64,000 nucleotides of DNA, from NCBI RefSeq assembly GCF_000372845.1, contig NZ_KB889963.1:1794146-1858145 (forward strand), written 5' to 3'. The translations under genes were made by a program, and so were the position numbers. This DNA is from Methylocystis rosea SV97. Its GTDB lineage: Bacteria; Pseudomonadota; Alphaproteobacteria; Rhizobiales; Beijerinckiaceae. This document shows positions 6,823 through 46,686 of this stretch, piece after piece. Each line of letters begins with the position of its first letter. Position 1 is the first letter of the stretch. Below the pieces are notes generated by a model. That model was not told the origin of the DNA. It searched no databases and was given only the letters and a program-made list of their open reading frames with translations.

Positions 6823-9132
6823 ATGCGCTCTATCAGCGGCATTTGGAAATCATCGTTCCTGTTCGCGGTTGTGGCCGCTCTGCTGGCGTTTAGCGTTCCG
6901 GCGTTCGCCGCGCCCGACATCAATCGCATCGCGTTCGAGGGCAACAGCAAGGTCAAGACTGACATCTTGCAGGAGCAGGTGCGCTCGCGCGCCCGCACAG
7001 AATTCAACCCGCAGATGGCCGAGGCCGACGTCGCGCGATTGACGGAAGTCTATCGCCGGTCGGGACGCGCTGCGGCGAAAGTGAGCTTTCGGACGGTTGA
7101 TCTGCCGAACGGACGCGTCGACCTGGTCTTCAGCATCGTTGAAGGCGACAAGACCGGCGTTAAGGAGATCCGTTTCATCGGCAATGAGGTCTACTCCACA
7201 CGCCGTCTTGTCGGCATGATGGAGACGACGGAAATGAACTTCCTGTCGTTCCTCAAGACAAGCGACGTTTATGATCCCGACCGTATCGCCGCGGACCTCG
7301 AACTCATTCGTCGATTCTATCTCAAGAACGGCTACGCCGATTTCCGCGTGATCAGCTCCGACGTGCAGTTCGATCCGGCGGCTGGCGGCTACATCATCAG
7401 CATCGTCGTGAACGAAGGCCCGCAGTATCGGGTGTCAACGGTCAGCGTCGAATCCCATCTTCCCGACGTGGACGGCGCCGCGTTGAATGATTTGCTGCGG
7501 CTTGCGCCGGGCGACGTCTACAACGGCGACGCGGTTGAGAAGACCGTCGAAGCGCTGACCCGCGAAATCGCCCGGAAGGGCTATGCCTTCACCCAGGCGC
7601 GCCCGCGCGGCGAACGCAATCCGGCCGATCAGACGGTCGCGATCCAGTTCCTGCTCGAGGAAGGACCCCGGGTCTACATTGAACGCATCAACATTCGCGG
7701 CAACACGCGCACGCGCGACTACGTCATCCGCCGCGAGTTCGATATCGGCGAGGGCGACGCCTATAACCGCGTCCTGATCGACCGCGCCGAACGCCGGCTG
7801 AATGGCCTCGGCTATTTCAAGAAGGTGAAAATCACCAATGAGCCGGGCTCAGCGCCGGACCGCGTGATCCTGAACGTCGACGTCGAGGACCAGCCCACCG
7901 GCAACTTCGGCATCTCTGGCGGTTATTCGACCAACCAGGGCTTTATCGCCGAAGTGTCGGTGTCGGAAAGCAACTTCATGGGTCGCGGCCAAGCGGTTCG
8001 CCTTTCGGTGCAGGGCGGCCAGATCGCCCGCGGCGTGACGTTCAGCTTCACCGAGCCTTATTTCCTCGACCAGCGCATCGCCGCCGGCTTCGACGTCTTC
8101 GTGCGTCAACAGGACGCTTATAACTACTCGATCTACAGCTCGACGTCCTACGGCGGCACGTTGCGCTTCGGCATCCCGATCACCGAAGAGCTCAGCTTCT
8201 CGCCGCACTACTCGATCTATCAAACGACGATCTCAATCCCGAACGACAAGAATCGTCCTTACAACGACTGTTTGGTGCCGGTGTTGGGCTACACGCCGGG
8301 GTTCAGTCCCTTCATGCCGACGACGAGCCTCTTCGTGAACTGTCAGTCGAACGGCGAGGCGTCGCTCGCGATCAAGGAGTCGCAGGGGGGGCTGCTGACG
8401 TCGCTCGTCGGCTATTCGCTGAACTACAGCACCATCGACAACTTCAAGAACCCGCATAACGGCTGGCTGGCGACGCTCAATCAGGACGTTGCGGGTCTTG
8501 GCGGCGGCACGCGCTATCTGCGCACGACCGGCGACATTCGCTACTTCCGTGAGATTCCCTATATCGACGATGTGGTCGGCATCGCCCGTCTGCAGGGCGG
8601 CGATCTGTCGACCTTCGGCGGCTACAAGCCGCGCATTCAGGACAACTTCAACCTCGGCCCCAGCCTGGTGCGCGGCTTCGCGCCGGGCGGCATCGGCCCA
8701 CGCGACTCGAACGTTCTGACGAGCTTCAACAACAATCGCGGCAACTCACTCGGCGGCTCCAACTATGTTGGCGCATCGCTCGAAGTTCAGTTCCCCTTCT
8801 GGTACCTGCCCAAGGATCTGGGGCTGAGAGGGGCGGTCTTCGCCGACGCCGGTTCGCTATGGAATTTTAGCGGTAAGACGAACTACGCCAACAATCTGCC
8901 CACGATTCCCGGCGTGACCTGCATCGGCGCCTATACGCCGGAGGCGGGCTTCGGGCAGGGCAATTGCGTTGTGCCGAATGCCAACTCCTTCAGGGTTCGG
9001 TCGTCCGTGGGCGCCTCGGTGCTTTGGAATTCGCCGATGGGGCCGATCCGCTTCGACTATGCGGTCGTGACCTCGAAGGCGAAAGAGGATATCACTCAGA
9101 ACTTCCGGTTCAGCGGCGGCACCAACTTCTGA
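6823..9132 (+). CDS. bamA: Outer-membrane protein assembly factor BamA
   Basis: BamA is the essential core of the BAM complex that folds and inserts outer-membrane beta-barrels. From the ATG at 6823 the protein has 769 residues: a signal peptide (basic start, hydrophobic core, cleavage after PAFA near 29), five POTRA domains to about residue 350, and a 16-strand barrel. The barrel's loop-6 VRGF motif is near residue 615 and the C-terminal residue is Phe, the BAM recognition signal. The frame is open 60 codons upstream, but only the start at 6823 exposes a normal signal peptide. It leads into the lpxD-fabZ-lpxA-lpxB group. Confidence 0.96.
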   Translation: MRSISGIWKSSFLFAVVAALLAFSVPAFAAPDINRIAFEGNSKVKTDILQEQVRSRARTEFNPQMAEADVARLTEVYRRSGRAAAKVSFRTVDLPNGRVDLVFSIVEGDKTGVKEIRFIGNEVYSTRRLVGMMETTEMNFLSFLKTSDVYDPDRIAADLELIRRFYLKNGYADFRVISSDVQFDPAAGGYIISIVVNEGPQYRVSTVSVESHLPDVDGAALNDLLRLAPGDVYNGDAVEKTVEALTREIARKGYAFTQARPRGERNPADQTVAIQFLLEEGPRVYIERINIRGNTRTRDYVIRREFDIGEGDAYNRVLIDRAERRLNGLGYFKKVKITNEPGSAPDRVILNVDVEDQPTGNFGISGGYSTNQGFIAEVSVSESNFMGRGQAVRLSVQGGQIARGVTFSFTEPYFLDQRIAAGFDVFVRQQDAYNYSIYSSTSYGGTLRFGIPITEELSFSPHYSIYQTTISIPNDKNRPYNDCLVPVLGYTPGFSPFMPTTSLFVNCQSNGEASLAIKESQGGLLTSLVGYSLNYSTIDNFKNPHNGWLATLNQDVAGLGGGTRYLRTTGDIRYFREIPYIDDVVGIARLQGGDLSTFGGYKPRIQDNFNLGPSLVRGFAPGGIGPRDSNVLTSFNNNRGNSLGGSNYVGASLEVQFPFWYLPKDLGLRGAVFADAGSLWNFSGKTNYANNLPTIPGVTCIGAYTPEAGFGQGNCVVPNANSFRVRSSVGASVLWNSPMGPIRFDYAVVTSKAKEDITQNFRFSGGTNF

Positions 9133-9214
9133 TGATCGGAGACGATCGCCGGGCGAACCGCGCCCGGCGGACGGCTGAAGGCTTGGCTTGGGCTGCCGCG
9201 CTGGATTTTGTAGC

Positions 9215-10285
9215 GTGAGCGCCGCGGCCTTCTTTCCCTTGGCGCGACCCGCCCCTTTGAGCGAAATTGCGCAGATCGCCGGGGCCGAGATTCGCGGCGG
9301 TCCTGACGGCGCGCAAGCGTCGGGCGAGCTTGCGCCGCCGCCCCTTATCATCGGCGTGGCCACGCTCGATTGGAGCAGGCCGGGCGACCTCTGCTTCTAC
9401 GACAACCCGCGTTATCGCAAGGCCCTCTTGGAGTGCCGAGCGACCGCCTGCTTCCTGCGCGCGCGCCATCTTGATCTGCTGCCCAAGTCCGTCGTCGCGC
9501 TCGTGGTCGACGATCCGCAGCGGGCGATGACGCTCGCGGCCGCGCATCTCTTTCCGGACGCGCTGCGGCCCGGCTCCTTATTCCAATCCAGCGGCGTTTC
9601 TCCGGGAGCGGCGGTGCATCCGCAGGCGCGACTCGAACCAGGCGTGGTGGTTGATCCCGGCGCCGTGATCGGGCCGGGCGCCGAGATCGGCGCCGGAACG
9701 ATTATCGGGCCGCAGGCGGTGATCGGTCCGAATGTGCGCATCGGCCGCGACTGTTCAATCGGCGCGCATGCGAGCCTCACCCATTCGCTGATCGGCGACC
9801 GCGTCGTCATTCACCCGGGGGCGCGGCTTGGGCAGGATGGCTTCGGCTTCGCGCCAACGCGCCAAGGTTATCTCAAGACGCCGCAGGTCGGTCGCGTGAT
9901 CGTGCAGGACGATGTCGAGATCGGCGCCAATACGACGATTGATCGAGGCGCGTCGCGCGACACGATCATCGGCGAGGGAACCAAAATCGATAATCTCGTG
10001 CAGATCGGCCACAATGTGGTGATCGGCCGTTTTTGCGCCATCGTCGCCCAATCGGGCGTAGCCGGCTCCTGTGAGATCTGCGATTTCGTCTCGCTTGGCG
10101 GACAATCCGCCGTCGCCGGCCACCTCACGATCGGCGAAGGCGCAGCGGTTGCCGCCAAATCCGGGGTTATGCGCGACCTGCCGGCGGGGGCGCGGGTCGG
10201 CGGCGCGCCAGCGCGCCCATTGCGGCGGTTCTTGCGCAGCGCGGCGTTGCTCGACCGACTCGCGCGCAAGGACAAGCCGACGTAA
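9215..10285 (+). CDS. lpxD: UDP-3-O-(3-hydroxyacyl)glucosamine N-acyltransferase
   Basis: This is the third lipid A enzyme. It transfers a 3-hydroxyacyl chain to the 2-amino group of UDP-3-O-acylglucosamine. It has an N-terminal uridine-binding domain (about residues 1-100), then a long left-handed beta-helix of hexapeptide repeats such as [14 protein letters not shown], and a short helical tail. The catalytic His is in [12 protein letters not shown]. There is no ATG: GTG at 9215 gives 356 residues and the usual N-terminus; a TTG at 9188 is the alternative. It lies 82 bases after bamA. Confidence 0.94.
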
Positions 10286-10353
10286 GACAAGCCGACGCGA
10301 AAACAAGCAAGAACTGGGATGGCGCTCGCCATGCCCTCGAGGAGGAGGAAAAA

Positions 10354-10818
10354 ATGCCCGAGGCCGCGGCCGGCGCGACTCTGGAGAGCGCCGACATTAT
10401 GCAGATCATGAGCCAACTGCCGCATCGGTATCCGTTCTTGCTGGTCGACCGAATCTTCGACATTCGCGGCGACGAATCATGCGTCGGCGTGAAGAACGTC
10501 ACGGTCAACGAGCCGCAGTTTCAGGGGCACTTTCCCGAGCGTCCGATTATGCCCGGCGTCCTGCTCATCGAGGCGATGGCGCAGACTGCCGGAGTCATCG
10601 CCATCCGCGCGCTGAAAGGCGCGGATCGGTCGCGTCTCGTTTATTTTGTCACGATCGACAATGCGAAATTCCGTAAGCCGGTGACGCCGGGCGACCGTGT
10701 CGAATTCCACATGGCCAAAACCGCGCAGAAGCGAAACATCTGGTGGTATTCTGGGCGCGCGTTGGTCGACGGCGCGCTGGTCTGCGAGGCGCAGATCAGC
10801 GTCATGATGGGCGGCTAG
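10354..10818 (+). CDS. fabZ: 3-hydroxyacyl-[acyl-carrier-protein] dehydratase
   Basis: FabZ removes water from 3-hydroxyacyl-ACP in fatty acid elongation and competes with LpxA/LpxD for the same acyl chains. The 154-residue hot-dog-fold protein has [11 protein letters not shown] near residue 28, the catalytic His in [10 protein letters not shown] near 59 and the catalytic Glu in LLIEAMAQ near 73. A strong purine-rich ribosome-binding site (GAGGAGGAGG) precedes the ATG. It is 68 bases after lpxD and 22 before lpxA. Confidence 0.96.
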
Positions 10819-10840
10819 CGTCGACGCGGCGAGTGCGACA

Positions 10841-11638
10841 TTGAGCCCTTCGGTTCATCGGTCCTCTGTGGTCGAAGACGGCGCGCGGCTCGGCGTCGGC
10901 GTCGCCATTGGCCCCTTTTGCCATATCGGCGCCGGCGTCGAGATCGGCGACGGCGCGACTCTCCACTCCCATGTGGTCGTCGGCGGCGTTACGCGCATTG
11001 GCGCGCGCGCGAGGATTTTCCCCTTCGCCGCCGTGGGACTGCCGTCGCAGGATATCAAGGCTGCGCTCGCGGAAGGCGTGCTGACGATCGGCGAGGGATG
11101 CGTCATTCGCGAAGGCGTGACCATCAATGCAGGCGTGGGCCAGGGCACGTGTATCGGGGCGCGCTGCGTCTTTCTTGCCTCTTCGCACGTCGCTCACGAC
11201 TGTCGGCTGGGCGACGACGTGATACTGTCCAATCAGGTTCTGCTGGGCGGCCACGTCGAGATCGGGGACCATGCGATGATCGGCGGCGCGACGGCGGTGC
11301 ATCAGAATGTGCGTATCGGCGCGCATGCCTTCGTCGGCGGCCTCTCGGGCGTCGAAGGCGACGTCATTCCCTTTACGCTCGCGTCGGGCAACCGCGCCCA
11401 TCTTTTCGGCCTCAACCGCGTCGGCCTGCAGCGGCGCGGTTTTGCGCCGGAGCGCATCGAGCGGCTACGCCGGGCGTATCGCCTGCTCTTCGCGCAAGAG
11501 GCGCGCGCGCTGAGCGAACGCATCGACTGTCTGTCGCGAGATTTCGCCGGCGACGCCGACATTGCGGCGATCGTCGAATTTCTGCGGGCGCCCTCGACGC
11601 GGCCGCTTTGCGCGCCTCGCGCGCGCGCCGAACCATGA
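10841..11638 (+). CDS. lpxA: UDP-N-acetylglucosamine O-acyltransferase
   Basis: LpxA starts lipid A synthesis by adding a 3-hydroxyacyl chain to UDP-GlcNAc. The 265-residue protein is a left-handed beta-helix of hexapeptide repeats (residues about 1-190) with a helical C-terminal domain. The catalytic His is in SSHVAHDC near residue 119. The start is a TTG at 10841, just after fabZ; no ATG is available near the expected N-terminus. Its stop overlaps the lpxB ATG, so the two are coupled. Confidence 0.94.
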   Translation: MSPSVHRSSVVEDGARLGVGVAIGPFCHIGAGVEIGDGATLHSHVVVGGVTRIGARARIFPFAAVGLPSQDIKAALAEGVLTIGEGCVIREGVTINAGVGQGTCIGARCVFLASSHVAHDCRLGDDVILSNQVLLGGHVEIGDHAMIGGATAVHQNVRIGAHAFVGGLSGVEGDVIPFTLASGNRAHLFGLNRVGLQRRGFAPERIERLRRAYRLLFAQEARALSERIDCLSRDFAGDADIAAIVEFLRAPSTRPLCAPRARAEP

Positions 11639-12777
11639 GCGCGCCGCGCATCTTCCTTGTCGCTGGCGAAGCCTCTGGCGATCAACTTGGCGCAGCGCTG
11701 ATGCGGGCTTTGCGCGCCGCGCGTCCGGAGACCGTTTTTTCCGGCGTCGGGGGCGAGGCGATGGCGCGCGAAGGCCTCGTTTCGCTGTTTCCGCTAGAAG
11801 ACATCGCGGTGATGGGCCTCATTCCCGTCTTGGCGCGGCTGCCGCGCCTTGTCCGGCGCATCGCACAGACGGCGCGGGCGGTCGCCGATCAGGCGCCGGA
11901 CTGTCTCGTCATCATCGACGCGCCGGATTTTACCCATCGCGTCGCGCGCCGGGTGCGGGCCGCCCGACCTGACCTGCCGATCGTCGATTACGTCAGCCCG
12001 ACCGTATGGGCGTGGCGGCCCGGCCGCGCGCGCGCGATGCGCGACTATGTCGATTGCCTGCTGGCGCTGCTGCCCTTCGAACCGCAGGCGCATGCTCGCC
12101 TTGGCGGGCCGCGATGCGTCCATGTCGGCCATCCGCTCGTCGAGCGGCTCGACGAGCTGACGCGGCCTTCTCACGATCGCGGCGTGGCGCGGTCGCTGCT
12201 CGTTCTGCCCGGGTCGCGTCTTGCGGAAGTGCGGCGCATGACGCCGATCTACGGCGAGGCGCTCGAACTGCTTTTGCGCGAACGCGCGGACTTCGAGGTC
12301 GTCATTCCTGTCGCGCCGAATGTTGAGAAGACCTTGCGACGCGAACTGCGGGGATGGCCGTTGACGCCGCGTCTGATTGGCCAGGCGGAGAAATTCGCCG
12401 CGTTTCGAAATGCGCGCGCCGCACTTGTGACGTCCGGCGTCGCGACGCTGGAGCTGGCGCTCGCCGGCGTTCCCATGGCTGTCGCCTATAAGGTCTCGCG
12501 CGTCGAATCGCTGCTGCGCTTTCTCGTCAAAGTCGAATCAATCGTGCTGCCCAATCTCATCATCGGCGAGAATAGTGTGCCGGAATTCCTGCAGGAGGCG
12601 GCGACGCCGCGCGCGCTCGCCGAGGCGCTGAGGCCGCTCTTGCGCGAGAGCGTGGCGCGCGAAGCGCAGCTCGCAGCCTTCAAGCGCGTCCGCACGCGCC
12701 TGCTCGAGACAGGCCGGACGCCGAGCGCTCGGGCGGCTGACATCATCCTGGAATATGCGTCGCGCGGTCGCTCTTAG
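11635..12777 (+). CDS. lpxB: Lipid-A-disaccharide synthase
   Basis: This family GT19 glycosyltransferase joins UDP-2,3-diacylglucosamine and lipid X to make the lipid A disaccharide at the inner face of the cytoplasmic membrane. The 380-residue protein begins IFLVAGEASGDQLGA and contains YVSPTVWAWRPGRA and LLVLPGSRLAEVRR, all characteristic. The ATGA overlap with lpxA is notable because most alphaproteobacteria have lpxI (DUF1009) between them. The UDP-diacylglucosamine hydrolase step must therefore be encoded elsewhere, as LpxH, LpxG or a distant LpxI. Confidence 0.96.
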   Translation: MSAPRIFLVAGEASGDQLGAALMRALRAARPETVFSGVGGEAMAREGLVSLFPLEDIAVMGLIPVLARLPRLVRRIAQTARAVADQAPDCLVIIDAPDFTHRVARRVRAARPDLPIVDYVSPTVWAWRPGRARAMRDYVDCLLALLPFEPQAHARLGGPRCVHVGHPLVERLDELTRPSHDRGVARSLLVLPGSRLAEVRRMTPIYGEALELLLRERADFEVVIPVAPNVEKTLRRELRGWPLTPRLIGQAEKFAAFRNARAALVTSGVATLELALAGVPMAVAYKVSRVESLLRFLVKVESIVLPNLIIGENSVPEFLQEAATPRALAEALRPLLRESVAREAQLAAFKRVRTRLLETGRTPSARAADIILEYASRGRS

Positions 12778-12790
12778 AGCGCTTCCGGGA
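12775..12790. repeat. Fragment of the GAGCGCTTCC intergenic repeat
   Basis: TAGAGCGCTTCCGGGATC begins on the lpxB stop codon, exactly as the longer copy begins on the rseP stop at 6407. Only the first arm is present before the convergent ssb stop at 12791. Confidence 0.4.
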
Positions 12791-13294
12791 TCAGAAAGGA
12801 ATGTCGTCGTCGAGTTGGTCGGAGAGCTTGCCGGCGGGGGCGGGACGCCGCTCGGTGGGACCGCGCTCCATCGGCGAGGAGCGGCCAAAGGATCCGCCGC
12901 TCTGGCTATAGCCGCTGTCGTAGTCGCCCTCGCTGCGTCCGCCCTTGCTGTCGAGCAGAGTCAGCTCGCCGCGAAAACGCTGCAACACGACATCGGTCGC
13001 CTTGCGCTGATTGCCGTCCTTGTCGGTATATTCGCGGGTCTGCAACTGGCCCTCGAGATAGATTTTTGAGCCCTTGCGGCAGTATTGCTCGGCGATCTTC
13101 CCGAGATTTTCGTTGAAGATCGACACATTGTGCCACTCGGTGCGATCTTTGCGCTCGCCGGTGTTTTTATCGCGCCAGGACTCGGTGGTCGCCACCGAGA
13201 AGGAGACGACGCGATCGCCGGACGGCAGCGTCCGCACCTCCGGATCGCGGCCGAGATTGCCGATCAGGATCACCTTGTTGACGCTGCCCGCCAT
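12791..13294 (-). CDS. ssb: Single-stranded DNA-binding protein
   Basis: SSB coats single-stranded DNA in replication, recombination and repair. The 167-residue protein begins MAGSVNKVILIGNLGRDPEV, has the OB-fold in residues 1-110, a Gly/Ser-rich linker, and ends in DDDIPF, the acidic tip that recruits partner enzymes. The ATG at 13294 is chosen from the conserved N-terminus; an open upstream stretch has no family character. It converges on lpxB with 13 bases between. An alphaproteobacterial SOS box lies about 120 bases upstream, at 13416-13430. Confidence 0.96.
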   Translation of the reverse strand: MAGSVNKVILIGNLGRDPEVRTLPSGDRVVSFSVATTESWRDKNTGERKDRTEWHNVSIFNENLGKIAEQYCRKGSKIYLEGQLQTREYTDKDGNQRKATDVVLQRFRGELTLLDSKGGRSEGDYDSGYSQSGGSFGRSSPMERGPTERRPAPAGKLSDQLDDDIPF

Positions 13295-13415
13295 GTCGCT
13301 CTCCGCTTGCTTTGACGCGTGGCACTCTAGTGCAAAGGCCGGTCCTGGGGCGCGCCGGCTCGGATTGTCCACAGATGATGTGGTTGCGCCTCTCGACCCC
13401 GGAACGTTCGATTTT

Positions 13416-13430
13416 TGTTCTAGCAGCGGT
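13416..13430 (-). promoter_or_regulatory. LexA (SOS) box upstream of ssb
   Basis: The sequence is GTTC, seven bases, GTTC, the direct-repeat LexA site of alphaproteobacteria (GTTC-N7-GTTC). It lies in the 207-base gap between ssb and the dctA stop, 121 bases before the ssb ATG, so damage control of ssb is expected. No such site was seen in front of uvrA at 15730-15853. Confidence 0.65.
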
Positions 13431-13501
13431 CGTAAGATCGCGCAAGCACAGCGGAATTTTGTTCTCTTTTTCCGAAGCTTAGCGCTTGCGGGCCTCTGGC
13501 C

Positions 13502-14812
13502 TCACTCCGTCGTGACGCCGATCGCGACATCGGAAGGATCAATTTTGCGTGCGAGCCCTGCGGTCAGCCGCGCGCGGTCCAGCTCGCCCTCCCAGGCGGC
13601 GACCACGATGGTGGCGACGCCATTGCCGATAAAGTTCGTCAAGGCTCGGCACTCGCTCATGAATTTATCGACGCCGAGGACAAGCGACATGCCCGGCGCC
13701 AGTTGCGGATCGACCGCCATCAAGGTCGCCGCCAGAGTGATGAATCCCGCGCCGGAAACGCCGCTCGCGCCCTTCGACGTCAGCATTGCGACGATGAGGA
13801 TGGTCGCCTGATGGGAGAGATCGAGCTCGACGCCCATCGCGCGCGCGATGAACAGCGTCGTCAGCGTCATATAGATGTTGGTGCCGTCGAGATTGAAGGA
13901 ATAGCCGGTCGGCACGACGAGTCCGACGACAGACTTCGAGCAGCCGAGCCATTGCAGCTTCTCCATCAGAGCGGGCAGGGCGCTTTCCGATGAGGACGTG
14001 CCGAGCACGATGAGCAGCTCGTCGCGCAGATAGGCGATTAGGCTGAAGATGTTGAAGCCAGCCGTGCGCGCAATGGCGCCCAGCACGAAGACGACGAAGA
14101 GCCCGGCCGTGAGATAGAACAGACCGACGAGTCCGGCGAGCGACAGAAGCGCGGCTGAGCCATATTTCGCGACCGTATAGGCCATGGCGCCGAAAGCGCC
14201 GATCGGCGCCGCCTTCATGATGATGGCGATGACCCCGAACATGGCGTGGCCGACGTCGTCGATGATCACCCGCAGCGCGCGGCCGCGCTCGCCGAGCGCT
14301 AAGAGCGCGAAGCCGAAAAGCAGCGAGAACAGCAGAACCTGTAAAATATCGCCCTTGGCGAAGGCGCCGATCGCGCTGTCGGGAATGATGTCGAGAAGAA
14401 AATCGACGCCGCCGCGCTTTTCCGCGAGCGCCGTATATTTGGCGATGGCGGAAGGGTCGGGCTTTCCGGCGAAGCCGGCGCCGACCTGCGCAAGATTTCC
14501 GATCAGCAGGCCGAGCGCGAGGGCGAATGTGGAGACGATCTCGAAATAGAGGAGCGCCTTGAGCCCGACGCGGCCCACTTTGCGCGCGTCCTCGATATGG
14601 GCGACGCCGGAGACGACCGTGCAGAAAATGATCGGCGCGATCGCCATCTTGATGAGCTTGACGAAGCCGTCGCCGAGCGCCTTCACCCAGTCCTGCGCGG
14701 CGGCGTGCGGCGCCAGCCAGCCGAACAGCGCGCCAAGCGCAATGGCCGCGAGCACCTGGACATAGAGGTGGCGGTAAAGTGGCTTGCGGGTAGCGGAGGG
14801 ATTGGCGGTCAT
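13502..14812 (-). CDS. dctA: C4-dicarboxylate transport protein DctA
   Basis: This inner-membrane symporter takes up succinate, fumarate and malate with cations. The 436-residue protein has the DAACS fold with about eight membrane helices and two re-entrant loops. The loop motif [11 protein letters not shown] (near residue 276) and [15 protein letters not shown] (near 309) mark DctA rather than glutamate carriers. The ATG at 14812 gives the usual N-terminus ([20 protein letters not shown]). No dctBD regulator genes lie nearby. It separates ssb from uvrA, which are often divergent neighbours in this class. Confidence 0.93.
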
Positions 14813-40478: not shown

Positions 40479-43256
40479 GTGAAGGCTTCTCGACGCGAGT
40501 TCGCCAAATTGGTCACCGCGAGCGGCATTGCGCTCAGCCTGTCGCGTCTTGCCCTAGCGAATGAACCTGAATTCGCCGCACGCGAGACGCTGCCCGGAAG
40601 ACAGCGCTGGAATCCGGCCGCCACGGGCGCAGGCCGGATTGATGGAGTCGCCAAAGTCACAGGGGCGAAGCTGTACGCGTCCGATTTCCGCGCCGCGGAT
40701 CTCCCGGGATGGCCGACGCATACCGCGCACGCCATGCTCATCCGGACGGCGAACGCCACGCATATCTACGAGGGCGTCGATCTCGCGCGCATGAGCGGCG
40801 CTTTGAAACCCTCCGTGATAATTACCGCAGCTGATCTCGCGCGCATCGGCGCTCGCGTTCCTAAATTCTATTCAGGCGACCTGTTCTGCCCGGTTGGCAA
40901 GACGCCCTTGTATCTCGGTCAGCCGGCGGCTCTGTTGATCTATGAAAGCTTCGACAATTTCGATCAGGCGCGGCGGCTTGCCTTACGCAACGAAACGCTT
41001 CTGAAATTCGGCGCCGAAACGGGTCCCGTCGTCGAGCGCGACTACGGCGCGTTTCGATTCACGCGCGTCGCCGGCGCGACGCCTGACGCGCCCGACGTGT
41101 ACTCGCCAGTCAAGGATGGCTGGGTCAGTCCAGGGTTCTTTCAAGACGGGGGCGGCCCAATATGGGCGCGGCTCCCCGTGCCGACAGGGGCAGCCTACGC
41201 CAATGCGGCAAGCTACGGCGAAGAGATCCGCGCCGAACTTGAGGCCGACACTCCAAATCTTCTCGTTCTCGACCGCGAATTCGAGACCCAATCCGTTGAT
41301 CCAATGTTTCTCGAGCCCGAATGCGGTCTCGCCTGGTATGATGCTGAGCGCAAAAACCTCGAACTCGTTCTCGGCGTGCAGTCGCCGTACGACGCCGCAA
41401 CCTCCGTCGCAACTCTGCTGGGCAACGCCCGCGCCAACTTCAAGCCGGCGCATATCAACGCGCACTTCGCTTATATGGGCGGCGGATTTGGGGGACGCGA
41501 CCACACGCCATTCCCGCTTTACGTTGCGCTGGCGGCGATGTTCCTTCCCGGTCGCCCCGTGCGGCTCTCCCAAGATCGTTATCAGCAGTTCCAGGGGGGA
41601 ATTAAGCGGCATGCGTTCAAGATGCGCACACGCATCGGCGTCGATCGAGCGACAGGCAAAATTTCCGCCTTCGCCGCTGACCATGTGCTGAATGGCGGCG
41701 GCCTCGCCAATTATTCGGCGAGCGTGGCGGCGGTTTCCGCCAATGCCGCGATAGGCATCTACGATGTTCCAAAAGTCGACGTCACCACAGTCGCGCTGCA
41801 TTCACGCGGCGTGACGGCCGGGTCGATGCGCGGCTATGGCACGCTGCAGACGATGACGGCGCTGGAAGTGTTGATTGACGAGGCGGCGTCGACGCTGGCG
41901 ATTGATCCGATCGAATTTCGCCGACGCAACGCGCTGAAGACCGGCGGTCGGACGATGGCGGGGAACACGTATGACGTCGTGGTTCGCACGCCCGAGATCC
42001 TCGACAGACTCGAGAAGCATGCGATCTGGCGACAGCGCGCCGAAGAGAAAGCGCGTGGGCGGCGCCCAGGGAGTGTTGTCGGCACGGGCGTGGCTTGCGT
42101 CACCAAGGATTACGGCAGTGGCGCCGACACTTCTTTGTCGTCAGTTGAGGTCGACCCAAAGGGTCGGATCTCGATCCGCTGCGATCACGTCGAGATGGGG
42201 AACGGCATAGGGACGGCGCTTGCGAACCGAGTCGCGGCCCATCTCGGCGCCGTGGCCGACGAAGTCGCCGTCGCGGAAGTCGACCGTTTCGCCGCGCTCG
42301 GGCTCGTCACCTCCGGCGACCCTTACACGATGGACCAGGCGACGCAGGACGCCGCGCAACGCGATCCGCGCTGGGTTCCGGCGATAAGTTCGCCAACCAG
42401 TTCCTCGATTGGCGCGCACGTCGGGACTCATTCGGCGTCCGAAGCCGCCCGCGTCATATATCGGTTCGGCTTGTGGCCCGCGGCGCTCGAACTGTGGGGA
42501 CTCGCGCCAACCGATCCGAGAGCCGCGAATTGGGACGCGGCGCGTTGGGAGCAGGGGCGGCTGGTGATGCCGGCGCTGAGAGCCTTGCCGCTATCGGAAA
42601 TCGCCGCAAGAGCCCATGCGCGTAAAGGCGTGACAGCGGCGATGGCGCACAGCTTCTCGCGCTGGTCATGGTCGAAAGCGACCTTTGCGATCGGCGGGCA
42701 AGAGTGGACGGCGGAAATTGATGCGCTGGCGGTGCGAAAAGGCTCAGGAAAATTCGTTCGCTTAGATCGCGCCGACGTCAAATACCCGCCCACCGTGTTC
42801 AACCGGATCGGGACCTCCTACACATCGTTGTGCGGCGCGCTGGTTCGTGTCGAGATCGAACGCGACACCGGCGCCTTGCGCATCGACCGGGCATATACTG
42901 TCCTCGAATGTGGTCGCGCGCTGACGCCCGAAATCGTTCTTGGCCAAGCGCAGGGCGGTTTCGCGATGGGCGTCGGCTACGCGCTGCTCGAATCGCTGCC
43001 GCTTTACGAAGATGGTCCCGGCAACGGGCAATGGAATCTCGGGCAGTACCTGATCGCGCGCGGGTCCGACCTGCCTTTGCAAGCGCTCGAGATCGAAATA
43101 TTGCCCCCGCTGCCGAACGATCCGCCAAAGGGCATGGCTGAGGTCGTTATGATTCCCATCGTTCCCGCGTTGTTAAACGCGATCTTCGACGCGACGGGGC
43201 GTCGCTTCCACGCCTTGCCGGTGACTCAACAAGAGCTCAAGGGAGCGCTCACGTGA
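40479..43256 (+). CDS. Tat-exported molybdopterin-binding hydroxylase large subunit (xanthine dehydrogenase family)
   Basis: This protein of about 925 residues binds the molybdenum cofactor and should hydroxylate an aldehyde or N-heterocycle. It begins with the twin-arginine motif SRREFAK followed by a hydrophobic stretch ending SRLALA, so it is exported folded. Cofactor motifs are YMGGGFGGRD near residue 333, SMRGYGTLQ near 448, and GMAE near 884, whose Glu matches the catalytic base of the GVGE motif. GTG at 40479 has AGAGG 7 bases before it; ATG at 40428 is the alternative. The stop overlaps the 2Fe-2S gene. No FAD subunit or XdhC chaperone lies nearby. Confidence 0.88.
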   Translation: MKASRREFAKLVTASGIALSLSRLALANEPEFAARETLPGRQRWNPAATGAGRIDGVAKVTGAKLYASDFRAADLPGWPTHTAHAMLIRTANATHIYEGVDLARMSGALKPSVIITAADLARIGARVPKFYSGDLFCPVGKTPLYLGQPAALLIYESFDNFDQARRLALRNETLLKFGAETGPVVERDYGAFRFTRVAGATPDAPDVYSPVKDGWVSPGFFQDGGGPIWARLPVPTGAAYANAASYGEEIRAELEADTPNLLVLDREFETQSVDPMFLEPECGLAWYDAERKNLELVLGVQSPYDAATSVATLLGNARANFKPAHINAHFAYMGGGFGGRDHTPFPLYVALAAMFLPGRPVRLSQDRYQQFQGGIKRHAFKMRTRIGVDRATGKISAFAADHVLNGGGLANYSASVAAVSANAAIGIYDVPKVDVTTVALHSRGVTAGSMRGYGTLQTMTALEVLIDEAASTLAIDPIEFRRRNALKTGGRTMAGNTYDVVVRTPEILDRLEKHAIWRQRAEEKARGRRPGSVVGTGVACVTKDYGSGADTSLSSVEVDPKGRISIRCDHVEMGNGIGTALANRVAAHLGAVADEVAVAEVDRFAALGLVTSGDPYTMDQATQDAAQRDPRWVPAISSPTSSSIGAHVGTHSASEAARVIYRFGLWPAALELWGLAPTDPRAANWDAARWEQGRLVMPALRALPLSEIAARAHARKGVTAAMAHSFSRWSWSKATFAIGGQEWTAEIDALAVRKGSGKFVRLDRADVKYPPTVFNRIGTSYTSLCGALVRVEIERDTGALRIDRAYTVLECGRALTPEIVLGQAQGGFAMGVGYALLESLPLYEDGPGNGQWNLGQYLIARGSDLPLQALEIEILPPLPNDPPKGMAEVVMIPIVPALLNAIFDATGRRFHALPVTQQELKGALT

Positions 43257-43768
43257 CGACTGTGCGCATGAGGATCAATGGACGCGCATATGGCCCGGTG
43301 AAGGTGCGCGACGAGCTGACCATGAATGACTTCTTGCGCGAGAGCCTTGGGCTCACCGGCACCAAGTTTGGCTGCGGCGCCGGGCAGTGCCTCAGTTGCG
43401 CAGTGATCATCGACGATCCGGACGGGACGAGCCACACCAGTCCAACCTGCATCGTTCCGGCGACGAGCTTCAACGGGAAATCCATTCGTACCGTGGAAGG
43501 CCATGCGACGAACGGCGAACTCACTACGCTGCAAAGATCGTTCATCGACCATTTCGCATTCCAATGCGGCTATTGCACAGCCGGCTTCTTGAACGAGGGA
43601 CAGGTTCTGCTGGAGCGTCTGGCGAAGACGCCGGTGGCGCGCGCCGATCTCGAGAAAACGATCGCGGACGCGTTTGACGGACATCTGTGCCGCTGCACCG
43701 GCTACTTCAAATATCACGAGGCTATGCGCGCCGTCGTTCTCGCCGATCCGGGACGATATCTGACGTAG
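43253..43768 (+). CDS. 2Fe-2S subunit of the molybdenum hydroxylase
   Basis: This 171-residue small subunit carries two 2Fe-2S clusters. The plant-type site is [14 protein letters not shown] plus PTC (residues 41-63) and the second site is QCGYCTAGF...LCRCTGY (about 103-143). It passes electrons from molybdenum onward. GTG at 43253 overlaps the large-subunit stop (GTGA). It has no signal peptide and is probably carried through Tat with the large subunit. The next gene, a c-type cytochrome, is the likely acceptor. Confidence 0.93.
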
Positions 43769-43813
43769 CGAAACGGCGTTTCGCATGAGTGCGGCGCAGG
43801 AGGGGGACCGAAG

Positions 43814-44401
43814 ATGAAATTTGCGGTTCTCGCAGCGGTCGTGGGGCTAATGACATGCGTGACGTCCGACTGCCGATCGGCGACGCTTGCAGCCCCAGAA
43901 AATTTTGCCGGCATCGGCGACGCCGCGGCGCGTTCCGCGGCTTTGTTTACCGAACTCGGCAAAGTCCTGACCAACCCGCGCTGCGTCAATTGCCATCCCG
44001 CCGGCGATCGCCCGCATCAGGGCGAACTGGGCCGGAGTCACCAGCCGCCGGTCGAGCGGGGACCGGATGGCCGAGGCCTCACGGCGATGCGCTGTCCGAT
44101 CTGCCATCAGGACGCCAATTTTGATCCCGGCCGCGTTCCCGGTCACCACGAATGGCGTCTCGCGCCGCGAGAGATGGGCTGGGAAGGCAAAACGCTCGGT
44201 GAGATCTGCGCGCAGATCAAAGATCAGGCGCGCAACGGCGGCCGTTCGCTGGAGGCGCTTGCACGCCACATTGGCGGCGACACGCTCGTAGGCTGGGCTT
44301 GGTCGCCCGGATTTGGTCGCCAACCCGCGCCGGGAACGCAGAAGGAGGCTGGGGCGCTCGTCGAAGCTTGGATCAACACCGGGGCAGTGTGCCCGAAATA
44401 G
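43814..44401 (+). CDS. Exported diheme cytochrome c, partner of the hydroxylase
   Basis: The 195-residue precursor has a signal peptide ([16 protein letters not shown]) and two heme-c motifs: CVNCH near residue 57 and CPICH near 94, with His/Met-rich sequence between. Cytochromes of this kind accompany IorAB-like hydroxylases and replace a FAD subunit as electron acceptor. It starts 45 bases after the 2Fe-2S gene with GGGGGACCG just before the ATG. Confidence 0.88.
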
Positions 44402-44513
44402 CGGAGGATAAGCGAACGGCGCGGCTTCCGGCGGCGATCGCACGATGTCCCCGCATCTATCGTCGTGACGGTCACCCTGCGCCTTTGCTGTCCTCATCTC
44501 ACTGGAGAGTCTC

Positions 44514-45626
44514 ATGATGCCCACCACGCTCGCGACAAGCCGTCTTCGCACGCTGCTGTCGTCGGTTGTCGTTTTTGGATTATCGGCTTCGCCCGCGTGC
44601 GCGACGGAGCTGCCAAGCTACTTCACAGGACTTGTCGGCGCCGAGACGGCCAGCCCCGCCGACATCGCCAACAAAAATGTGCTGCAGCTGAATACGACGA
44701 TGTTCCAGCTGTATGGCGACGCCGCGCAGATCTTCAAGAAAAACATCCTCGCGAAGCATCCGGTCATTCTCGGACTGTTTTCCGGCGCCGGCGGGCGATT
44801 TATCCTTTATCGCCCCGGCATGGCGCCGATTGAGGCGCCGCAGGCGCCGATCGTCTACCAGTTGTTGAAATCGGTTGGCCACAGCACCATGGCGTTGGCC
44901 GAAGTCGTCGTTCCCTATCTGAACAGTCCCAAGGACACGACTTGGCGCGGCGCCTTGGCGGCGTATAGGAGCCGCATGCGATCCGCGCTCGACACGCTTG
45001 ACGCGAGCGGCATGCAAAAAGACTGGCGAACAAACAATCGAAGCATTCTGCAGAACAATATCGCGTTCATGGACGAGTGTCTGAAGAACAACGCGATCTC
45101 AGCGGAAGGCCTGCAAAAATTCGCCAAGAAGCAGTCGCCGCTGCTGAAGAAAAATATCGCCTGGGCGGCGCAGACCCAGGTCGCTCATTGGATGGATGTC
45201 ATTGCCGGTTGGAAAGAGACGCTTGGCGCCGACTGGGACAAAACCTATGCGGCGAGCAATACGATCTATGTCGCGCGCCAGAACAATGTCCTGTTTAGCG
45301 TGCTCGCGCAGTTCTTCGGCCCTGAGGCCATCAATGATCGCCTGATGCTGATCGAGACGATATCCTTCACCACGACGCCCGACGATATGCTGGAATCGCT
45401 GACGCGCATCATCGCCGACCGCTCGGTGGGCGCCGCATTCTTCGGCGATTACCATCTCATGGATTTTGAATTGATGGGCGGAGACGCGCGTCAAGCGATC
45501 ATCGACGAAGACGCGAAGCGCAAGATGAATGTGGTGCTGCCGCCGCAAGTGCCGTTCGGCTCGCACCAATGGCCGACGCTGATCACGCCGGGGCCCGGCG
45601 CGAAGAGCTTGAGCGATCTTCCGTGA
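44514..45626 (+). CDS. Secreted protein of unknown function, linked to the hydroxylase cluster
   Basis: The 370-residue precursor has a signal peptide ending near SPACA (residue 30). The mature part is mostly helical, with NTTMFQLYGDAAQIFKKN, GAGGRFILYRPG, and several Trp, Gln and Asn-rich segments. It has no CxxCH, lipobox or transmembrane helix. I do not recognise a family. GGAGAG lies 7 bases before the ATG. It follows the cytochrome by 112 bases on the same strand, so a periplasmic role in the same process (substrate binding or maturation) is possible but unproven. Confidence 0.8.
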   Translation: MMPTTLATSRLRTLLSSVVVFGLSASPACATELPSYFTGLVGAETASPADIANKNVLQLNTTMFQLYGDAAQIFKKNILAKHPVILGLFSGAGGRFILYRPGMAPIEAPQAPIVYQLLKSVGHSTMALAEVVVPYLNSPKDTTWRGALAAYRSRMRSALDTLDASGMQKDWRTNNRSILQNNIAFMDECLKNNAISAEGLQKFAKKQSPLLKKNIAWAAQTQVAHWMDVIAGWKETLGADWDKTYAASNTIYVARQNNVLFSVLAQFFGPEAINDRLMLIETISFTTTPDDMLESLTRIIADRSVGAAFFGDYHLMDFELMGGDARQAIIDEDAKRKMNVVLPPQVPFGSHQWPTLITPGPGAKSLSDLP

Positions 45627-45726
45627 ATTCGACCCCCCAGCCGCGATCACGGCGCGAAATGTTCCTGAGTTTGCGGCGGGGGCCAGCTTCATTGCGCCAT
45701 GGCGAGTCGAACGCCACGGGCTACGC

Positions 45727-46686
45727 TCATCTCAGGCCAGCCGCCTGCAAAATGGCGTCGACGTCAGCCAGCCATACTGCGTCCTCCGACTTCAGGCGCA
45801 AAAGAACGCGCCGCAGCGCCAGGGCTCCGTCAGGCGTGCCGACGACAAATGGATGAATTCCGATGACCACAGTCGTGGCGCCTCGCGCGGGGTTGGCGCG
45901 AGCCTCAATGACCAGTTCCGATACATAGTCCAACCAGAGCGCCTCGATCTCTCGGGTCGTCTTCATCCGCGCAAGATATTGCCCCATGTCGACTGTAACG
46001 GTCGGATAGGGCAGCAGGATGAGCGAACCTTCCGGCGTCTTCAAACGTGAGATGATATCGGAATCCATCTGGTCGAGCGTGTAGGCGACGCCTTCGGCGG
46101 CCATCGCCCGCATCGTGTCGCGATTGGCGTAGACGCTCGGACTCGACCAGCCGGTCGGCTTGACGCCGGTAGCTTCGGCGATGAGATCCAATGTGCGGCG
46201 AATGTACGCCTTCTGCGCGGCGATCCCACTCCGGAGCGGCAACATGTGGGTCGTGTTGTTCATGCCGTGCGCGACGATCGGCGCGTTCGGCAGCATCGAA
46301 CGGAACTCCTTCCATACGGATGGGCGCCTGCCGAAAAATTCCGCGTTCACCACTACAGTGAGCGGCACGTGAAGTTCTTGAAATAGCCGGCCGACGCGGA
46401 CAATGCCCCAGTCGCTTGCATATTGACGGAACGCCTCGTTCACGAGGTCAGGATTGCGGGACGCAAGATCTGGGCGGAAGATCGGACCTTGGCCGAATCC
46501 GAACTCCTCCACGAAGAACGCGAAGCTGACCGCGACCTTTTTGCCGCCAGGCCAGGCGGCGGTGTGGATCGCTTCGCGCTCGAAACCGGTGACGCGATCA
46601 ATTGGATCTTGCGCACCGCTCTGGAGAGGAAGCAGAACGGCAAAAAAAAGCGCAACTCCGACAATAAATTTTCGGTTCCGTGAGAT
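45727..46686 (-). CDS. Exported polysaccharide-deacetylase-like protein, apparent ATC start
   Basis: The frame has a NodB-like core (KKVAVSFAFFVEEFG, PTGWSSPSVYANRDTMRA) and ends DVDAILQAAGLR. The first ATG/GTG/TTG is a GTG at 46512, which would remove the first strand of the fold. The open frame continues upstream into a clear signal peptide (SRNRKFIVGVALFFAVLLPL, then QSGAQ). The codon before it, at 46684-46686, is ATC with GGAG 7 bases away, so ATC is the best start and gives 319 residues. The first motif lacks the usual Asp (FVEEF in place of xFDDG), so activity may differ. It follows the kinase gene by 19 bases. Confidence 0.7.
   Translation of the reverse strand: MSRNRKFIVGVALFFAVLLPLQSGAQDPIDRVTGFEREAIHTAAWPGGKKVAVSFAFFVEEFGFGQGPIFRPDLASRNPDLVNEAFRQYASDWGIVRVGRLFQELHVPLTVVVNAEFFGRRPSVWKEFRSMLPNAPIVAHGMNNTTHMLPLRSGIAAQKAYIRRTLDLIAEATGVKPTGWSSPSVYANRDTMRAMAAEGVAYTLDQMDSDIISRLKTPEGSLILLPYPTVTVDMGQYLARMKTTREIEALWLDYVSELVIEARANPARGATTVVIGIHPFVVGTPDGALALRRVLLRLKSEDAVWLADVDAILQAAGLR

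Follow-up and report, generated by a model that had tools for sequence, protein, structure and literature searches.

A candidate periplasmic molybdenum hydroxylase locus of Methylocystis rosea and an undescribed family of secreted proteins often encoded beside such enzymes

Enzymes that combine an IorAB-like molybdenum hydroxylase with a cytochrome c have been proposed in two pseudomonads. In the available part of PMC6365646, PS417_10890/10885/10880 of Pseudomonas simiae is put forward as an IorAB-like deoxyribose dehydrogenase that is suspected to be periplasmic and whose putative operon includes a cytochrome c gene, and the related PP_3621-3623 of Pseudomonas putida is put forward as a vanillin dehydrogenase. 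As far as the accessible parts of two further sources go, several nicotinate dehydrogenases use cytochromes (PMC10331938), and the enzyme of PMC5131310 has flavin adenine dinucleotide (FAD) and does not use cytochrome c. A locus of comparable arrangement is described here from Methylocystis rosea SV97 (source genome 3.9 Mb), within a stretch of 64,000 nucleotides of contig NZ_KB889963.1 that is called the window. Its four genes encode a molybdenum-binding large subunit (MoL), an iron-sulfur small subunit (FeS), a cytochrome c (Cyt) and a secreted protein (Sec), and they are flanked by an M48 peptidase gene and a PuuE-like gene. As far as the searches show, Sec represents a family that is undescribed in Pfam, NCBIfam, PHROGs and the searched literature, and its genes stand beside molybdenum hydroxylases of two kinds, a link that is real but not exclusive. 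The features of the locus are as follows, with Tat standing for twin-arginine translocation.

40479 to 43256, plus strand: MoL, molybdenum-binding large subunit; 925 residues from a GTG start, Tat-type signal SRREFAK; PF02738 and PF20256; PDB relatives 1t3q and 1rm6
43253 to 43768, plus strand: FeS, small subunit with two [2Fe-2S] domains; 171 residues, PF00111 and PF01799; GTG start, 4-base overlap with the MoL stop; no signal seen
43814 to 44401, plus strand: Cyt, exported cytochrome c; 195 residues, two CXXCH motifs (CVNCH, CPICH)
44514 to 45626, plus strand: Sec, secreted protein of an undescribed family; 370 residues with a signal peptide, without a Pfam, NCBIfam or PHROGs family
45623 to 45668, plus strand: 5' remnant of the PuuE-like gene; its GTG overlaps the Sec stop, and it aligns to the gene start in L013 and other loci
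45719 to 46668, minus strand: body of the PuuE-like gene, inverted with respect to relatives; open frame 45727-46512; 91% identity to L013 12113-11164 in reverse

We propose, with the case for and against about evenly balanced, that MoL, FeS and Cyt form a periplasmic molybdenum hydroxylase, that Sec acts at the level of the substrate and is neither a subunit nor a maturation factor, and that the substrate is a cyclic amide, a ureide or an N-heterocycle. MoL with its cofactors would take FeS along through the Tat system, and a small molecule would be oxidised with water at the molybdenum of MoL. The electrons would pass through the two [2Fe-2S] clusters to the two-haem Cyt and from there to the respiratory chain rather than to FAD or nicotinamide adenine dinucleotide. 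Sec would be a soluble periplasmic protein that binds the substrate or performs a step before or after the oxidation. The most complete version of the cluster would add an exported PuuE-like amidohydrolase, such that the compound is hydroxylated and then ring-opened. Gene content, export signals in the sequences, the gene association and the fifth gene are observed, whereas the electron path, the substrate class and the role of Sec are inferred.

The enzyme part looks like an FAD-free exported molybdenum hydroxylase of the already known IorAB-like type with cytochrome c, judging from its domains and motifs. MoL matches both molybdopterin-binding domains of Pfam (PF02738, 163 bits, E 8.7e-48; PF20256, 102.5 bits, E 3.9e-29; cut-off 27 for each), and FeS matches two [2Fe-2S] domains (PF00111, 29.5 bits with a cut-off of 21; PF01799, 73.5 bits with a cut-off of 30.3). 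Cyt has no Pfam match above cut-off and no NCBIfam family at E 1. MoL aligns with quinoline 2-oxidoreductase (1t3q) and 4-hydroxybenzoyl-CoA reductase (1rm6), and its KGMAE motif aligns with KGMGE of 1t3q; the glutamate of this motif is presumably the catalytic one near the molybdenum. The two molybdopterin-binding domains, the two [2Fe-2S] domains and the glutamate motif place MoL and FeS in the xanthine oxidase family. The MoL reading frame extends open upstream, and the GTG at 40479 gives a Tat-type signal that aligns with the homologues, all 26 of which, as read, carry a loose twin-arginine motif. Two CXXCH motifs are present in 25 of 26 Cyt homologues, the exception (L020) being a match that begins past the first haem site. 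The absence of an FAD subunit, the Tat-type signal on MoL and the neighbouring cytochrome c gene are the features of an IorAB-like enzyme with cytochrome, as defined in PMC6365646.

An earlier sequence-only reading of this DNA had described a large subunit with a Tat signal, a 2Fe-2S subunit, a two-haem cytochrome and a secreted protein on one strand, and had taken the enzyme for a periplasmic hydroxylase without an FAD subunit that sends electrons to cytochrome c. The frames lie as it placed them, and domains, motifs and gene content agree with its view of the enzyme. Its suggestion of an undescribed system is not supported for the three enzyme genes, because the arrangement has already been published for the proposed deoxyribose and vanillin dehydrogenases, in what is available of PMC6365646; the enzyme is therefore counted as a known type. 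Its remark that the set lacks XdhC holds. The single XdhC match of the genome lies at G000:C1:3198581, close to the sole other match to PF02738 (MoCoBD_1) at 3196748; the genome thus offers a maturation factor in trans.

Close MoL homologues (at least 68% identity) occur in 12 of 397 genomes of the order, the window's included, beyond which the next matches drop to 42%. FeS and Cyt adjoin MoL in all 12. The closest relatives are from Methylocystis, with 98% identity to L011, and in L014 the MoL match is divided between two frames. The Cyt family is broader than close MoL and reaches 48 of the 397 genomes. Among Methylocystis relatives purifying selection acts on each of the four genes, with ratios of nonsynonymous to synonymous substitution (dN/dS) of 0.04-0.24, and of 0.08-0.12 for Sec. 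Scans for promoters and terminators gave counts near the level of shuffled sequence (1 versus 1.4 and 7 versus 5.8), and the terminator scan gave no terminator-like site in the interval between Cyt and Sec.

The secreted protein was one that the sequence-only reading could not place, and it had allowed that Sec might prove to belong to a known family found mostly elsewhere. Profile searches gave no such family: Sec has no match above cut-off in Pfam, NCBIfam (even at E 1) or PHROGs. A single pattern scan built from the window's Sec found 16 relatives at 61-96% identity. A Sec profile matched 15 of the 397 genomes of the order, of which 14 are counted after a weak match (G432, 55 bits) was left out, and a broader profile (A2) run over the phylum matched 4 of 398 genomes, all already found, plus one new paralogue in the window's genome. 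Twelve members of the wider family share the invariant residues Y67, P83, L98, K119, H123, A218, Q222, D302, F310 and L320, plus M1, and K119, H123, Q222 and D302 fall in predicted helices.

Structure models of Sec reached a predicted local distance difference test score (pLDDT) of 50.9 at full length, and a pLDDT of 69.8 and a predicted template modelling score of 0.69 for the mature part. Foldseek found nothing at E 0.001 for the model in the PDB or among viral models. The best fold match is lpg1979 (4jx2), a putative secreted protein of Legionella pneumophila of unknown function, with a Z score of 14.6 over 269 aligned residues and the next best at 10.2. The root-mean-square deviation is 6.2 with 11% identity, for helical models that lack a clear match a best Z of 14 is typical, and the alignment mostly probes residues 78-191 of the model; the likeness is a weak lead. 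The DUF5624 profile matched one of the 12 family members under cut-off (E 0.017) and none in the window's genome. Apolipoprotein A-I, from a profile search of PDB sequences, was taken as a chance match (E 0.08 at best). Distant Sec homologues without an obvious signal are found on the Agrobacterium plasmid pAt (L113) and in the paralogue of the window's genome (L122 7941-8816), in keeping with a small-molecule function that is not bound to one compartment. The paralogue (G000:C1, at about 402 kb) lies near apparent nitrate assimilation genes, as seen from translations without a family scan.

Sec adjoins MoL-FeS-Cyt in 14 of the 16 relatives from the pattern scan. It stands downstream of the enzyme genes, upstream of them (four loci of the order) or convergent to them (L018), and being kept beside the enzyme in several gene orders, the association survives rearrangement. 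In L017 (Methylocystis silviterrae FS, 9745-10885) a deletion fuses the start of MoL to a truncated Sec; most of MoL is gone, as are FeS, Cyt and the front of Sec, and the PuuE-like gene is kept. Among the 14 Sec genomes of the order, nine carry Sec beside a molybdenum hydroxylase, which is MoL-FeS-Cyt in five and an FAD-containing enzyme, here type B, in four (G547, G388, G587, G674). Among the 12 genomes with close MoL, Sec is adjacent in five, lies elsewhere in three (G480, G658, G727) and was not found in four. The expectations that Sec is tied to the MoL hydroxylase alone, and that it always neighbours MoL, are thus not borne out.

The association was compared with 40 control regions placed at round coordinates in the genomes of 13 Sec loci, the window being left out. 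At a distance of up to 3 kb from the centre, 8 of the 13 Sec loci and none of the 40 controls had a molybdenum hydroxylase (Fisher p 1.5e-6); at up to 8 kb the counts were 8 of 13 and 1 of 40 (p 1.2e-5). These p values serve as a guide only since the genomes are related. If Sec were a chance or historical neighbour that travels with the hydroxylase and has no function in common with it, Sec genes away from both enzyme types (5 of 14) and the mixed neighbours of the wider family would be expected, but not the difference from the controls nor the two hydroxylase types interleaved on the Sec tree, of whose inner branches 12 of 27 are weak. This explanation is improbable.

The second kind of neighbour bears on what Sec does. 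In L021 (Microvirga antarctica, 7400-14633), Sec is followed by an FAD subunit and a fused Fe-S/Mo subunit, and L082-L085 likewise have an FAD plus fused Fe-S/Mo hydroxylase beside Sec; an ABM-domain gene follows in L083. At all five type-B loci Sec has a hydrophobic N-terminus (maximal 12-residue hydropathy 1.60-2.36), whereas the FAD and Fe-S/Mo subunits, at 0.15-1.15, have none. Because the type-B enzymes are without an export signal while Sec has one, Sec is probably no subunit: a shared substrate would be possible and a shared complex would not. Its place beside two kinds of molybdenum hydroxylase, with no XdhC adjacent, could also suggest a maturation factor or an extra subunit of these enzymes. 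That is quite unlikely, given that Sec is exported and type-B enzymes look cytosolic by sequence, that four of the 12 MoL genomes have no Sec match and that XdhC is available in trans; a maturation role was rejected mainly on the missing export signal of type B. A shared substrate is the best reading of Sec beside both types.

A fifth gene, absent from the sequence-only account, adds to the locus. PuuE opens the ring of allantoin, and an exported-type PuuE-like gene comes next after Sec on the same strand in 10 of 16 related loci (L011, L013-L017, L022-L024, L026); L013, from Methylocystis sp. L43, has the five genes in line, and L026 is from Xanthobacter tagetidis. The encoded proteins have a signal-like N-terminus, and a possible GTG start overlaps the Sec stop in all six Methylocystis-type copies. 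The gene is present in two separated clades of the MoL tree, from which L014, L017 and L021 were omitted by an identity and length filter. The copy of L022 has in-frame stops as read, and that of L013 matches TIGR03212 under cut-off (E 4.2e-18). The gene was not found in L018-L021 and L025, of which L019 offers only about 970 bases past Sec, and in L012 it has shrunk to a 58-base match.

In the window the gene is broken by an inversion of the segment 45719-46668, which leaves its first codons stranded at 45623-45668. No ATG, GTG or TTG lies upstream of the signal-peptide codons of the inverted gene, and the earliest start codon in the frame is that at 46512; the PuuE-like protein is probably not exported in this strain, to judge from the reading frame. 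The inversion may be genuine or an assembly error. A phase switch is not supported, there being 26 inverted-repeat pairs around the segment and none that is long and exact at both ends. The dN/dS of the inverted gene (0.12-0.22, versus 0.10-0.27 in relatives) is not clearly relaxed. Three different lesions among Methylocystis loci (the window, L012 and L017) speak for a dispensable trait.

Given the PuuE-like amidohydrolase of the fullest cluster, the substrate would most likely be a cyclic amide, a ureide or an N-heterocycle, although such substrate genes were looked for around Sec in the order sample and showed no enrichment, and this class has at best about an even chance of being right. 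Single neighbourhoods point to cyclic amides or ureides. Near the set in L079 lie a PF04199 cyclase, a TRAP transporter, a second two-subunit molybdenum hydroxylase and an MmgE/PrpD protein. The L021 stretch has two NMT1-type binding proteins and, about 9 kb from Sec, a protein that matches biuret hydrolase and RutB under cut-off. In L113 (1654-8957, Agrobacterium tumefaciens pAt) the distant Sec homologue ends a run annotated as dihydropyrimidinase, short-chain dehydrogenase/reductase, DUF1445, 'heme-binding protein' and ATP-binding cassette genes. HbpS-like genes (PF03928) also occur near clusters (L026 12068-12556, L092 9939-10463), and near Sec in none of 13 loci of the order sample.

In another reading, the enzyme oxidises an aldehyde or a sugar in the periplasm, as the dehydrogenases proposed for deoxyribose and vanillin would, and Sec and the PuuE-like protein serve other ends. 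Such an enzyme would match PS417_10890/10885/10880 and PP_3621-3623 in subunit logic and proposed export route, so far as the consulted part of PMC6365646 describes them, and would agree with the four of 12 genomes in which MoL occurs without a Sec match. This reading is nonetheless unlikely, because Sec stands beside molybdenum hydroxylases far above the control level and in several gene orders, and in 10 of 16 loci the PuuE-like gene comes straight after Sec.

Several observations weigh against the proposed substrate-level role of Sec and the nitrogenous substrate. Five of the 14 Sec genes stand beside neither hydroxylase type (G727, G500, G658, G480, G399), and four of the 12 MoL genomes gave no match to the Sec profile (G459, G673, G679, G707). 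Seven sampled genomes with distant Sec homologues (25-29% identity) have no MoL, FeS, Cyt or PuuE-like match nearby, one of these stretches being just 4.4 kb. Within 8 kb of Sec in the order sample, dihydropyrimidinase, isochorismatase-like, PuuE-like and NMT1 binding proteins were each found in 0 of 13 loci and the cyclase in 1 of 13. The figure of 14 of 16 rests on the pattern scan with the window's own Sec and includes six near copies from Methylocystis and its kin. The calls of export come from motif and hydropathy instead of a trained predictor, and for several loci the start codon is in doubt. Deoxyribose and vanillin, and not N-heterocycles, are the substrates of the enzyme's published relatives, as given in the part of PMC6365646 that was available.

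If the proposal is right, Methylocystis and other Alphaproteobacteria could use the periplasm to oxidise and ring-open a nitrogen compound and feed its electrons into respiration; present annotation would hide this use of molybdenum. The unnamed Sec family would gain a handle, namely its study with the substrate of the hydroxylase in strains that keep the set intact. A wider version, in which Sec founds a family whose members feed molybdenum hydroxylases as small-molecule enzymes or binding proteins, and the five genes together carry out a wholly periplasmic oxidation and ring-opening of an N-heterocycle or cyclic ureide with electrons passed straight to cytochrome c, is doubtful.

In the open-licence literature, mostly judged by title and the start of the abstract, neither Sec nor the five-gene set was found described, and comparison is with its parts. 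The PuuE-like proteins match PuuE allantoinase (3cl6) over the whole domain: the Xanthobacter copy does so at E 1.8e-13 and the Methylocystis copy at 1.1e-12, and for the latter 3rxz is the best match (6e-15). Unlike PuuE they have a signal peptide, and with scores of 57.5 and 65.4 bits, below the 424.6 that TIGR03212 requires, they are not PuuE by that standard. Cytochromes annotated 'Isoquinoline 1-oxidoreductase subunit' on plasmids (for instance of Paracoccus yeei and Ensifer canadensis) have 48-54% identity to Cyt among the 20 of 48 records listed. In the three plasmid stretches read, the cytochrome lies beside (2Fe-2S)- and molybdopterin-binding proteins, as Cyt does here; those of P. 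yeei and E. canadensis differ in the order FeS-Mo-Cyt, in a Mo subunit of about 715 residues and in having no Sec or PuuE-like gene annotated. With the proposed deoxyribose and vanillin dehydrogenases, so far as they are described in the source cited above, the locus shares a two-subunit FAD-free molybdenum enzyme, a possible Tat signal on the large subunit and a cytochrome c gene in a putative operon. In its arrangement it differs from them: MoL, of 925 residues, leads the gene order, Cyt is a short protein with two haems, and Sec and the PuuE-like gene stand after the enzyme genes.

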